Shown: in pieces, positions 18,498-35,168 of the stretch
How positions within the stretch are numbered: position 1 is the stretch's first letter
How the letters are laid out: every line of letters starts with the position of its first letter
NCBI GenBank assembly: GCA_021845925.1
Contig: JAJZUW010000002.1
Span: 181,128 to 245,127, forward strand
Reading direction: 5' to 3'
Source of the DNA: Pseudomonadota bacterium
Lineage (GTDB): Bacteria; Pseudomonadota; Gammaproteobacteria; Burkholderiales; Sulfuriferulaceae
Length of the DNA stretch: 64,000 nt
Notes under the pieces: model-generated
What the model saw: the letters and a program-made list of their open reading frames with translations, nothing else
What the model was told of the DNA's origin: nothing
The model's database searches: none
Program-made: the position numbers and the translations under genes

Positions 18498-18542
18498 TGG
18501 CGCGCCCGACAGGAGTCGAACCTGTGACCTTTGGCTTCGGAA
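18498..18542. repeat. Left attachment site (attL), tRNA-Arg 3' fragment
   Basis: 45 bases identical to 35124-35168 in the same orientation. They start with TGG, the complement of CCA, and run through the T arm and variable loop to the anticodon loop. Identity stops abruptly on both sides (C versus A before, C versus A after), as expected for a recombinase crossover core. Confidence 0.9.
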
Positions 18543-18603
18543 CGCGAAAATTTTACATCATAACGCCATAAATATAAAAGAAAATTTGATTTTTTTGATG
18601 GCA

Positions 18604-18629
18604 TTTGGGACAATGGTGGGACAGTGAGA
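18604..18629 (+). promoter_or_regulatory. Candidate recombinase arm-binding sites, left end
   Basis: TTTGGGACA at 18604-18612 and TGGGACAGTGAGA at 18617-18629 lie between the left repeat and the integrase start. The same two words occur in the same order near the right end at 35034-35043 and 35047-35059. Recombinase arm sites are inferred from this arrangement; they also overlap the probable int promoter region. Confidence 0.5.
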
Positions 18630-18648
18630 TTCCCGAAGGTGGCCCATT

Positions 18649-19806
18649 ATGGCGACAATTCAGAAGCGCAGTGGCAATTGGCAAGTCAAGATTCGCAGGG
18701 GTGGTTGGCCAGTTCAAACCCGTACATTTGATGTTCGTGAGGATGCAGAAAAGTGGGCACGTGCGCTTGAACGCGAAATGGATGTCGGCTCTTTCATCCA
18801 GCGTGACGACTCCGAGCGGGTGACCTTTGCCCAGGCAGCAAAGCGTTATGAACAGGAAATCTTGCCCGAGAAACGAGGGCGTGTGCAGGATGCCAGTCGT
18901 TTGCGACAACTGGTCAGGGCATTTGGTCCATATAGCCTGATTGCGCTCACAAATATCCGCATCGCGGAATATCGTGATCAGCGATTGAAACAAATCTCAC
19001 CACAAAGTGTGGTGCATGAATTGGGGGTGCTGACACGTGTGCTGAAGGCATGCGTCATGGATTGGGGCATCATGCTGCCACATGGCATTCCCACTGCAAT
19101 GGTGCGGAAACCAAAGATCAGGAACGAACGCAGCCGGCGGCTTGATCCGCTTGAAGAGCAATACCTGTTTGAAGCCATCCGCAACCCTGGCACCCAGCAC
19201 CCCAATCCCTGGACAATGGCACTGGTCGTGCTCGCACTGGAAACCGCAGGGCGCCGTTCCGAATTGTTGTCCTTGCGGTGGGATGAAATTGATCTGAACC
19301 GTCGTGTGGCAAGGTTGCGTGGAGCCGATGGCGGTGTCACCAAGAACAATGAGCCATGGCGTGACATACCCTTGTCATCCCGGGCGGTCGCCATGCTGAA
19401 AGAGTTGCCCCGCTCTCTGGATGGCAGGGTATTGCCGATGACTCCCAACGCAGCACAGACATCATGGGAACGTGCAGTGCTGCGGGCAAGGCAGAATTAT
19501 CTGCATGACATTCTGAAACAGCGATTGCCTGCCATGGGGCTGGATGCCGAATCGGAAATCCGGGCGCTGGTGTTCAAGAAACGTGAGCCGCATGCGCAAA
19601 CAGTAAAGATCTTGACCGAACTGAACTTGCGAGACAAGACACTGGTTGATTTGCATTTCCATGATTTGCGCCATGAAGCCACCAGCCGTTTGGCGGACAA
19701 ATTGCAAATGCACGAACTGATGAAAGTCACCGGGCACAAGACCAGCAAAATGCTGGCACGGTATTATCACCCCCGTGCTGAGGATCTGGCAGCCAAGATC
19801 GGGTAG
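18649..19806 (+). CDS. int: Tyrosine recombinase/integrase of the island
   Basis: Site-specific recombinase of 385 residues. The N-terminal part begins MATIQKRSGNWQVKIRR, an arm-binding AP2-like pattern, followed by a SAM-like core-binding domain. The catalytic domain shows the first arginine in ETAGRRSELLSLRW, the H-x-x-R box in FHDLRHEATSRL, the second histidine in VTGHKTSKML and the nucleophile tyrosine in ARYYHPRAEDL. All catalytic residues are present, so the enzyme could be active. It lies 106 bp from the left tRNA repeat and reads into the island. Confidence 0.95.
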   Translation: MATIQKRSGNWQVKIRRGGWPVQTRTFDVREDAEKWARALEREMDVGSFIQRDDSERVTFAQAAKRYEQEILPEKRGRVQDASRLRQLVRAFGPYSLIALTNIRIAEYRDQRLKQISPQSVVHELGVLTRVLKACVMDWGIMLPHGIPTAMVRKPKIRNERSRRLDPLEEQYLFEAIRNPGTQHPNPWTMALVVLALETAGRRSELLSLRWDEIDLNRRVARLRGADGGVTKNNEPWRDIPLSSRAVAMLKELPRSLDGRVLPMTPNAAQTSWERAVLRARQNYLHDILKQRLPAMGLDAESEIRALVFKKREPHAQTVKILTELNLRDKTLVDLHFHDLRHEATSRLADKLQMHELMKVTGHKTSKMLARYYHPRAEDLAAKIG

Positions 19807-19862
19807 CCGTGAAGTGTGGGCCAAATCGTGTATTATCTGTCTGATCAGCCAAGGATGTAACA

Positions 19863-32836: not shown

Positions 32837-33116
32837 AAACGCACCGCCCCGTCTCAGGGGGCGGATGGCGATATGGTTGCTGGAAATCCGGGCGGGCGTT
32901 TATGTCGGGAATTATTCGGCAAAAGTTCGGGATTATATCTGGAGCCAGACGGTGGAAGGGATAGAGGAAGGGAACGCCGTGATGGCATGGAAGACCAATA
33001 ACGAAGCCGGTTTCGATTTTATGACGATTGGCAAGAATCGGCGCATTCCTCTGGAAATGGACGGTGCAAAACTGGTATCGTTTTTGCCTTTGGAAGATGA
33101 TGGCCAAGTTCTTTAA
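32817..33116 (+). CDS. cas2: CRISPR adaptation protein Cas2 (type I-E)
   Basis: 99-residue I-E Cas2: it begins [20 protein letters not shown] and contains [18 protein letters not shown], the hallmark of Cas2e (CRISPR_Cas2_Cas2e). It bridges two Cas1 dimers in the spacer-integration complex. The gene ends 102 bp before the first repeat, so the array is promoter-proximal to its leader. Confidence 0.95.
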
Positions 33117-33218
33117 CAATCCGTAAAATACCGACTGCTGATTCGGATTTTTTAGTCGAAAATCGGTGATTTTCTATCCCCATGAAAAACTTTTGTTTTT
33201 CATGGGGATAGAATTAGT
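33117..33218 (+). promoter_or_regulatory. CRISPR leader with a 17-bp perfect palindrome
   Basis: AT-rich stretch between cas2 and the first repeat. It holds an unusually strong inverted repeat: CTATCCCCATGAAAAAC (33174-33190), a TTTT loop, and the perfect complement ending GGGGATAG at 33211. The palindrome stops only seven bases before repeat 1. It may serve as a cas-operon terminator, as a leader-anchoring site for adaptation, or both. No clear IHF consensus was identified by eye. Confidence 0.75.
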
Positions 33219-34836
33219 GTGTTCCCCACGCCCGTGGGGATGAACCGCGATTTGACGTAGCCTTGCAATTCCTGAGAAGGTGTTCCCCACGCCCGTGGGG
33301 ATGAACCGGCCAATATTCTGGCCGGAATGGCTGACGTTGAGTGTTCCCCACGCCCGTGGGGATGAACCGCCGCGAAAGAGCGCATCAGATCGGGCAAGGT
33401 GGTGTTCCCCACGCCCGTGGGGATGAACCGCGGAAATCGGTACAGGCACAATCAGCAACGGCGTGTTCCCCACGCCCGTGGGGATGAACCGCCGCCGCGC
33501 TGGCCGGGCTGGAATTCCCGACCGTGTTCCCCACGCCCGTGGGGATGAACCGATCACGCCTCGCGCATGGCCGTTTGATCGCCCGTGTTCCCCACGCCCG
33601 TGGGGATGAACCGGACCGGATGTCGGCAGAGGATCAGGGCGACAGGTGTTCCCCACGCCCGTGGGGATGAACCGGGCTGTTTCGACGCGCCCAGACGAAA
33701 TAAAGCGTGTTCCCCACGCCCGTGGGGATGAACCGCCCATGACGCCGTTCTACGATGAGTTAAAGCGCGTGTTCCCCACGCCCGTGGGGATGAACCGGCA
33801 TTGGATTAAGCTGACTCCAAGCCACACCAGTGTTCCCCACGCCCGTGGGGATGAACCGGCGGTTCGATCAGGTAGACATTATGCGGATGTGTGTTCCCCA
33901 CGCCCGTGGGGATGAACCGACAGCCGGTGCTGACTGGTTTGAAGATCCGAAGTGTTCCCCACGCCCGTGGGGATGAACCGGAATCATTATGCAAATGTCA
34001 GGTGGTTATAAAGTGTTCCCCACGCCCGTGGGGATGAACCGCACTCTGTAGCCAGATTCTATTCAAATGGCGCGTGTTCCCCACGCCCGTGGGGATGAAC
34101 CGAATGCGCAGAAATAGCTGACGCGATGATCTCGGTGTTCCCCACGCCCGTGGGGATGAACCGGCGTTGATTGAGCGCGATAAGTGCTGCTGGATTGTGT
34201 TCCCCACGCCCGTGGGGATGAACCGTCATTGCCGGGACGGGACAATACCGCCCTTTCGTGTTCCCCACGCCCGTGGGGATGAACCGGACTGTGAATAACT
34301 CTCAGACAGTAGCATCGAGTGTTCCCCACGCCCGTGGGGATGAACCGAACGAAAAAATGGTCAAAGAACACGAAAAGATGTGTTCCCCACGCCCGTGGGG
34401 ATGAACCGCGTACCAAAATGTGGATATCCAAAAATTTCCGGTGTTCCCCACGCCCGTGGGGATGAACCGGCATGCATCCAACTCGCGTCATGCCCTGCAA
34501 AGTGTTCCCCACGCCCGTGGGGATGAACCGCGTCTAATCTTGTCGGGTTTCCCATCTTCCCCGTGTTCCCCACGCCCGTGGGGATGAACCGCAGATACAG
34601 GGTATTCATGCAATCATCGGGGTAGTGTTCCCCACGCCCGTGGGGATGAACCGATGCCACCCACAGCTGACCGACATTGACCGAGGTGTTCCCCACGCCC
34701 GTGGGGATGAACCGCATTTATTTACTCATCGTCTGACGCAGAAAAAGTGTTCCCCACGCCCGTGGGGATGAACCGCGGGGATACCGGGACGTTGGCAGCC
34801 ACAAATGGTGTTCCCCACGCCCGTGGGGGTAATCCC
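33219..34836 (+). CRISPR. Type I-E CRISPR array, 27 repeats and 26 spacers
   Basis: The 29-bp repeat begins GTGTTCCCCACG, has the palindrome CCCCACG-CC-CGTGGGG, and ends GATGAACCG. Starts run 33219, 33280, 33341 and so on, with a 61-bp period; three periods (before 33769, 34197 and 34625) are 62 bp, giving 33-bp spacers, the other spacers being 32 bp. The last repeat (34808-34836) is degenerate after CGTGGGG (GTAATCCC), marking the leader-distal end. All other repeats are identical as far as I can read. No two spacers are identical. The leader side abuts cas2. Confidence 0.98.
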
Positions 34837-35123
34837 CCCTGCAAAAAGTTGGGGATAGAAGTAGAATTTTCTCACGAAGAGGGGGGCTGCATTGCGATCG
34901 TCCCTGAAAAAGAATGGGTTGCGACCAACATAGTTCATTCTGCCTAGTTTATGGCAGCGAAATGTCAGGAATTTGCTCTATTTGGGACACTCACGCGACA
35001 ATCACCCCGTCAAGCCTTGTCCACTCTGGGATATTTGGGACACCCTTGGGACAGTGAGAAATTTTTTTCGTCACTTATCCACAGGTTATCAACAGGCAAA
35101 AATCACGTAAGTCATTGATTTTA
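34837..35123. promoter_or_regulatory. Right-end noncoding region with candidate arm sites
   Basis: No gene is supported here. TTTGGGACAC occurs at 34981-34990 and 35034-35043, and TGGGACAGTGAGA at 35047-35059, mirroring the words at 18604-18629. TTATCCACAGGTTATCAACA near 35077 resembles a DnaA-box pair but is isolated. A 30-codon protein-like tail after the last repeat (ending EWVATNIVHSA) could be a gene remnant. Confidence 0.5.
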
Positions 35124-35168
35124 TGGCGCGCCCGACAGGAGTCGAACCTGTGACCTTTGGCTTCGGAA
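35124..35168. repeat. Right attachment site (attR) inside tRNA-Arg
   Basis: Identical to 18498-18542. It covers the tRNA 3' half, so island insertion left the tRNA gene intact by supplying an equal 3' end. Confidence 0.9.

Follow-up and report, generated by a model that had tools for sequence, protein, structure and literature searches.

A Predicted Integrative Island at tRNA-Arg(CCG) With a Complete Type I-E CRISPR-Cas Locus

Introduction

CRISPR-Cas systems on integrase islands have been described in the Vibrionaceae. Vibrio cholerae GI-24 is a 17 kb island with a type I-E system, and its excision was shown by nested polymerase chain reaction (McDonald et al., 2019, PMC6360697). The same report describes other Vibrionaceae islands with CRISPR-Cas and an integrase, located at tRNA-Met or tRNA-Leu or adjoining them; where the tRNA gene is named, the systems considered here are of types I-F, II-B, and III-A. 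Here we analyze 64,000 nt of contig JAJZUW010000002.1 (assembly GCA_021845925.1, a Pseudomonadota bacterium of the Sulfuriferulaceae), which we call the window, and in it a 16.6-kb segment holding an integrase and a type I-E locus at tRNA-Arg(CCG).

Whereas GI-24 lies between homologues of VC0289 and VC0290, the window island lies at tRNA-Arg(CCG), and whereas the cas order of GI-24 is a variant with cas6 before cas7, the window has the order cas7-cas5-cas6. Unlike GI-24 as portrayed in the parts of that report used here, the window island also has a nuclease gene inside the cas operon and carries a circularly permuted (CP) group II ribozyme with its acpG gene. Since CRISPR islands with att sites and proven excision were already known from GI-24 (PMC6360697), the window island is a well-supported new example and not a new kind. 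The original prediction, made from this sequence, thus overrated its novelty, GI-24 being a close precedent. Its inventory of integrase, type I-E genes and array was correct, but it overlooked the nuclease (DUF1016, PDC-S02), the CP group II ribozyme with acpG, and the integrase boxes. What the window adds is a CRISPR island that is bounded on both sides and does not belong to the Vibrionaceae; CRISPR, a CP group II ribozyme, and AcpG are there placed on the same predicted mobile unit.

An Exact tRNA Repeat and Paired Boxes Bound the Segment

The 16.6-kb segment is in all probability an integrative island with an integrase and a complete type I-E locus, predicted to excise and integrate as one unit. 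Its ends are made up as follows.

18498..18542, no strand: att repeat, distal (orphan) copy of the tRNA-Arg(CCG) 3′ end; exact repeat, two copies in the genome
18605..18623, plus strand: TGGGACA-N4-TGGGACA, boxes spaced by 11 bp, predicted to be arm-type sites of the integrase at the integrase end
18649..19806, plus strand: tyrosine recombinase (integrase), 385 aa; open frame, PF00589 at E 2e-18
34982..35053, plus strand: predicted arm-type boxes at the tRNA end, one alone at 34983 and two at 35036/35047, the latter with 11-bp spacing
35124..35168, no strand: att repeat, tRNA copy (3′ 45 nt); exact repeat and tRNA call
35124..35200, minus strand: tRNA-Arg(CCG), intact; called by ARAGORN

The direct repeat is exact over 45 bp, and its copies (18498–18542 and 35124–35168) lie 16,626 bp apart from start to start. 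On the right the repeat forms the 3′-terminal 45 nt of the intact tRNA, and on the left it is an orphan 3′ piece, so that an exact direct repeat of the tRNA 3′ end, as looked for in a tRNA island, stands at both ends. Allowing up to three mismatches, we found the repeat at these two places only in the 2.34-Mb genome, and a reversed control pattern gave no match. The original prediction had described the repeat as the 3′ part of tRNA-Arg(CCG) bounding 16.6 kb, and this is what we observe.

The integrase gene lies just inside the left end. The recombinase had been called intact-looking, which is borne out by its open frame, the PF00589 match and the residues R202, K232, H338, R341, H363, and Y372/373, which are shared by at least 95% of an alignment of 41 sequences that includes the window's; these we take to be the catalytic residues. 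Its viral relatives were distant: one viral contig at 34% identity, and phage records at no more than 33% among the matches listed.

Of seven TGGGACA copies on the plus strand of the window, five are within ∼150 bp of the island ends. A pair of GGGACA boxes at 11-bp spacing occurs exactly twice, in the gap between left repeat and integrase and in the gap between array and tRNA. The two pairs look like the arm-type sites of one attP, to which the integrase would bind.

The Same Architecture Is Found in Related Islands

The comparison covered 22 integrase loci, made up of the window, five relatives from the genus or order, nine of ten loci from a genome scan, and seven from another search. L064–L068 (identical to L004–L008) were taken and L009–L032 left out of the box examination; L127–L133 (seven of L111–L118) were taken and L116 left out. 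L078 was removed, as its match covers 71 residues only. A tRNA T-arm box was found 110–171 bp upstream of the integrase gene in all 22, and two identical boxes of 6–10 bp, exactly 11 bp apart, in 20 of them. The box letters vary by locus (for example GGGACA, GGCACA, GCCACA, ATCACA, and GTCGTAA). The other two loci, L067 and L131, have merely 4 identical bases in the box pair; 5 identical bases were reached by 6.7% of shuffles.

Both ends could be placed for five islands: the window, L077 (3.9 kb, tRNA-Val(TAC)), L129 (14.2 kb, tRNA-Arg-CCG), L130 (8.0 kb, tRNA-Arg-CCG), and L132 (11.7 kb, tRNA-Pro(CGG)). When both strands of each whole locus (19–64 kb) were searched, the box pair was found exactly twice in all five, inside each end and in the same orientation. 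Two other genera (G131 and G191) have the same integrase family at tRNA-Arg(CCG) with different cargo, and in L129 and L130 the tRNA is flanked on its other side by a cytochrome c gene, as in the window. The ten open reading frames (ORFs) of L129 that were scanned include conjugation-type genes, with matches to TrbL and a coupling protein, as well as a TIR and a caspase-like protein. The five ORFs scanned in L130 gave matches to DUF4062, AIPR, and TrfA, and the five scanned in L132 one relaxase-Toprim protein. This signature, a tRNA 3′ piece followed by two boxes 11 bp apart and an integrase gene, can serve to locate where other islands truly begin and end.

From this arrangement we propose that the integrase would bind the paired TGGGACA boxes, spaced by 11 bp, that in the circular form would lie to either side of the core, and would recombine the 45-bp tRNA core. 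The incoming copy would restore the tRNA 3′ end, and an orphan copy would be left at the far end. As known for these protein families, the cas2 end would be where Cas1–Cas2 insert spacers, and matching invaders would be cut by Cascade and Cas3. A recipient of the island would thereby gain an immune system plus its memory.

The tRNA-Arg(CCG) Site in Genus Relatives

In the window, tRNA-Arg(CCG) lies beside the cytochrome c gene and alr. The alr gene is present in 17 of 18 genomes of the genus, and tRNA-Arg(CCG) adjoins it in 9 of the 17 best loci, the window's own included. In the other eight of these the tRNA again stands beside cytochrome c and alr, and none has a repeat pair in the available sequence, which extends 12–17 kb beyond the tRNA in six of them and only 55 and 566 bp in two. 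This comparison of the tRNA locus, proposed as a check in the original prediction, agrees with an island at this place in the window. One of the eight, G009, has a distant integrase (24% identical) at the tRNA. The left-flank gene of the window (17303–18295) occurs in 4 of 17 other genomes of the genus.

In three genus relatives (L059, L060, and L061) we saw by eye two TGGACCA boxes just past the 3′ end of tRNA-Arg(CCG), followed in L061 by a distant (24%) integrase gene.

A Complete Type I-E Locus With 26 Spacers

The CRISPR-Cas part of the island consists of the following features.

23320..26394, plus strand: cas3, longest frame; I-E models
26306..27886, plus strand: cas8e (cse1); I-E models
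27883..28341, plus strand: cas11e (cse2); I-E models
28338..29471, plus strand: cas7e; I-E models
29344..30162, plus strand: cas5e; I-E models
30153..30776, plus strand: cas6e; I-E models
30801..31898, plus strand: YhcG-type DUF1016 PD-(D/E)XK nuclease, between cas6e and cas1e; Pfam, PADLOC PDC-S02
31916..32836, plus strand: cas1e; I-E models
32817..33116, plus strand: cas2e; Pfam CT1978-type Cas2 model (Pfam alone queried)
33219..34836, plus strand: CRISPR array, 27 repeats of 29 bp, 26 spacers

The gene order cas3-cas8e-cas11-cas7-cas5-cas6e-cas1-cas2 with an adjoining array is that of type I-E. A full I-E system with its array had been predicted, in agreement with the family models, which match all eight cas genes, and with the 27 repeats. 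As the NCBIfam cas3 match begins at residue 153, the true start of cas3 is probably further in than that of the longest frame. Directly before this frame, tandem 24-bp repeats were seen at 23202–23313. In related loci, the gap between cas6e and cas1e is absent (G135) or ∼0.8 kb long without a match to the DUF1016 gene (G086).

Spacers are 32–33 nt long, and the last repeat, on the tRNA side, is alone degenerate. Four of the 26 spacers were searched against viral contigs with 23–25-nt patterns, and one of the four gave a match of the kind expected for a spacer taken from an invader: spacer 12 (33920–33951) matches a viral contig at 32 of 32 positions, with AAA on the 5′ side. An AA-type motif has been reported for V. 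cholerae type I-E, with which this AAA agrees (PMC6360697). Compared with phages, the whole array yielded spacer 21 as its single weak candidate (30 nt, 93%, E 0.04), along with long low-identity matches in short records. Compared with plasmids it gave matches 60–90% identical, many spanning most of the array.

Composition and Origin of the Island Genes

G+C content is 54.2% in the island and 56.5% and 58.5% in its two flanks. Taken as a whole, the island is foreign in its dinucleotide signature: its distance to the flanks (delta*) is 0.091, whereas 19 overlapping flank windows of equal length, themselves part of the background, give 0.009–0.024. The claim of an integrase-driven tRNA-Arg island carrying the whole CRISPR-Cas locus has thus held up, by this signature together with the end boxes, the integrase family at the same tRNA, and the relatives without the repeat pair.

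The cas locus may have recombined into an older, smaller integrase island, in which case CRISPR would not be the original passenger. We regard this as a serious alternative that falls just short of an even chance. Cargo varies among the islands of this integrase family, and cas modules do recombine: in G011, of the same genus (L136), a type I-E locus has Cas1–Cas2 86–89% identical to those of the window and effector proteins only 28–36% identical, which suggests an exchange of adaptation and effector modules. The stretch cas3–cas6 is clearly foreign (0.093, vs. at most 0.050 in 7.5-kb flank windows), whereas the integrase stretch is within the flank range. G063 has a 41%-identical integrase, upstream of which a fragment resembling tRNA-Arg(CCG) was seen by eye, and on another contig a cas8e that is 84% identical; as both contigs are short, the two cannot be linked. 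On the other side, both box pairs lie outside the whole cargo, so that such an event would leave the present ends unchanged, and an integrase stretch of 1.3 kb is too short for composition to say much. More broadly, a search of 399 genomes of the order at E 1e-60 found Cas8e in just three others, all of other families, with identities of 84, 73, and 51%. Within the genus, Cas8e is present in only one other genome, 30% identical and at a different place. By comparison, alr is itself only 56–70% identical within the genus (best locus per genome, 16 other genomes), a contrast that favors transfer of the cas genes and the island reading.

Is the Island Still Mobile?

A second alternative is that the island arrived by way of this integrase and cannot leave now, being without a working excisionase or having a silent integrase. 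We consider such a fossil unlikely. It is favored by the lack of a firm excisionase and by the island being in place in the one assembly. The candidate for a directionality factor is a 107-aa ORF.

20381..20704, minus strand: 107-aa ORF, weak candidate recombination directionality factor; homologues near related integrases

Its homologues, which are weak, occur within ∼1 kb of related integrases in L068 (the same place as L008) and L009, and it has no Pfam or PHROGs match, even at E 5. The integrase frame, intact and with its conserved residues, speaks against a fossil, as do the identical att copies and the box pair at both ends.

Several further points weigh against an island that excises and integrates as one unit. 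Excision, a circle, and an empty site have not been seen for this strain, for which there is one assembly with the island in place, and no excisionase was firmly identified, the 107-aa ORF being a weak candidate only. The genus relatives compared are different species. In 8 of the 16 other genomes of the genus there is no tRNA beside alr in the stretches scanned, nor in the longer stretch scanned for one of these (G005). No tRNA was found within ∼1.5 kb of the left-flank gene in three of the four loci, those scanned (L144–L146); no base-exact empty site was thus found, and the left junction could not be matched to one. The integrase stretch alone has a distance of 0.074, inside the range of 1.2-kb flank windows. 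Three of the four spacers searched gave no viral-contig match. Finally, no relaxase, secretion, or other transfer genes were recognized among the ORFs scanned, and transfer would therefore need a helper, a phage, or transformation.

That the repeat is a chance or unrelated duplication of the tRNA, with the integrase acting elsewhere, is very improbable, for although orphan tRNA pieces can persist from older insertions, the integrase box pair lies just inward of each repeat and at no other place in the 64 kb, and a tRNA piece followed by the integrase is found in all 22 related loci examined.

A Predicted CP Group II Ribozyme and Its AcpG Protein

Between the integrase and cas3, the island, which we continue to read as an integrative unit, carries the following features.

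19863..20387, plus strand: DUF4160 and DUF2442 genes; Pfam
21247..22056, minus strand: CP group II (T-large) ribozyme RNA, predicted; D5-like hairpin starting near 21943; class according to PMC8637638
22448..23167, plus strand: acpG homologue of 239 aa; group II intron maturases rank first for its predicted fold

Roth et al. (2021, PMC8637638) describe a class of circularly permuted group II ribozymes together with an ORF, AcpG, and also report genomes that have the RNA without AcpG. We found a conserved noncoding stretch upstream of the acpG ORF in 23 of 30 upstream stretches of homologues by iterated nhmmer. From this set L081–L083 and L140 were removed as duplicates, L097 and L100 were omitted before the count of 30, and L142 has 96 nt upstream only; the RNA model later also matched L084, L090, L100, L109, and L110. 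The consensus fold of the minus strand has an energy of −218.9, vs. a mean of −59.4 for 30 column shuffles. The plus strand also beats the shuffles, by less (−177.8 vs. −47.2). In a second alignment, 57 of 80 predicted pairs changed on both sides.

Near the 5′ end of the RNA we saw by eye a D5-like hairpin with a triad and a 2-nt bulge five pairs apart, the triad being AGC in 18 of 23 rows (the window's included) and CGC in 5. A triad and a 2-nt bulge five pairs apart are listed among the D5 features of CP group II ribozymes (PMC8637638). Our RNA model R1 scored 138.9 bits against pPNAP05, a plasmid reported to carry a CP group II RNA (PMC8637638), and only 16.3 bits against pTT8, a distant published member. 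The window copy is like those of Roth et al. (2021) in its RNA of ∼0.8–0.9 kb, its D5-like hairpin near the 5′ end, and its adjoining acpG, and, as far as the parts of that paper used here go, unlike them in sitting in a CRISPR-bearing tRNA island (PMC8637638). A novel RNA family had been considered, as there was no Rfam match and the fold beats shuffles; it was rejected because the class is published (PMC8637638). Rfam likewise misses the published pPNAP05 copy.

The RNA was found in 20 of 300 genomes of the order, all 20 of which hold the acpG ORF, with a model built partly from these searched genomes. All 24 RNA matches lie within 1.7 kb of an acpG match (tables compared by eye). The converse is looser: 12 of 32 genomes with the ORF had no RNA match in the stricter search, in which at least G014 and G021 were searched, and a laxer search found the RNA in some of the other ORF-bearing genomes.

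Relatives of the acpG ORF occur in 32 of 399 genomes of the order. Searches of Pfam, NCBIfam, PADLOC, and PHROGs with the window ORF gave no match. Its protein shares 43% identity with one on pPNAP05 and gives a weak match to TTHC007, by profile only (hhalign, 177 columns, E 2e-4, probability 45) and with no BLASTP match. For two AcpG models, VIA-align ranked group II intron reverse transcriptases/maturases as the best folds, with 172–214 residues aligned. A new fold had been entertained when the first model gave no Foldseek match at E ≤ 1e-3 among PDB and viral models, and was given up when VIA-align put group II intron proteins first; that structure lists lack a named fold does not show the folds to be different. 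The sequence profile against PDB chains gave four weak matches only, none to group II intron proteins.

A YxDD-type motif defines the reverse transcriptase family of group II introns. The [FY]xDD motif is absent from all 63 aligned AcpG proteins, which in this respect differ from the group II intron reverse transcriptases. We tentatively suggest, judging it somewhat less probable than its contrary, that AcpG might be a shrunken, catalytically dead group II intron maturase that no longer reverse transcribes and serves as the dedicated partner of the CP group II ribozyme. The pair would travel on plasmids and integrase islands, here beside CRISPR and a second nuclease gene as a mobile defense island. 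As a proposed maturase relative, AcpG would have an identity that can be tested.

A general link between CRISPR and CP ribozymes was also considered and rejected: no cas gene of the window was matched in 20 acpG neighborhoods (L171–L190) or in L137 at E 1e-6. Integrase relatives were found in 5 of the same 20 neighborhoods, one of them weak (E 2e-5).

Three further observations concern the RNA. A 23-bp direct repeat (91% identical, 20746–20768 and 22111–22133) brackets the CP group II RNA region. Outside the island, the same genome has a second CP group II RNA (L137, G000 contig 5, ∼98.7–99.9 kb) that scored 141.5 bits and has an acpG homologue of its own, 31% identical. The order DUF2442 gene, CP RNA region, acpG is common to pTT8 (L194, 4026–6943) and the window (20133–23167).

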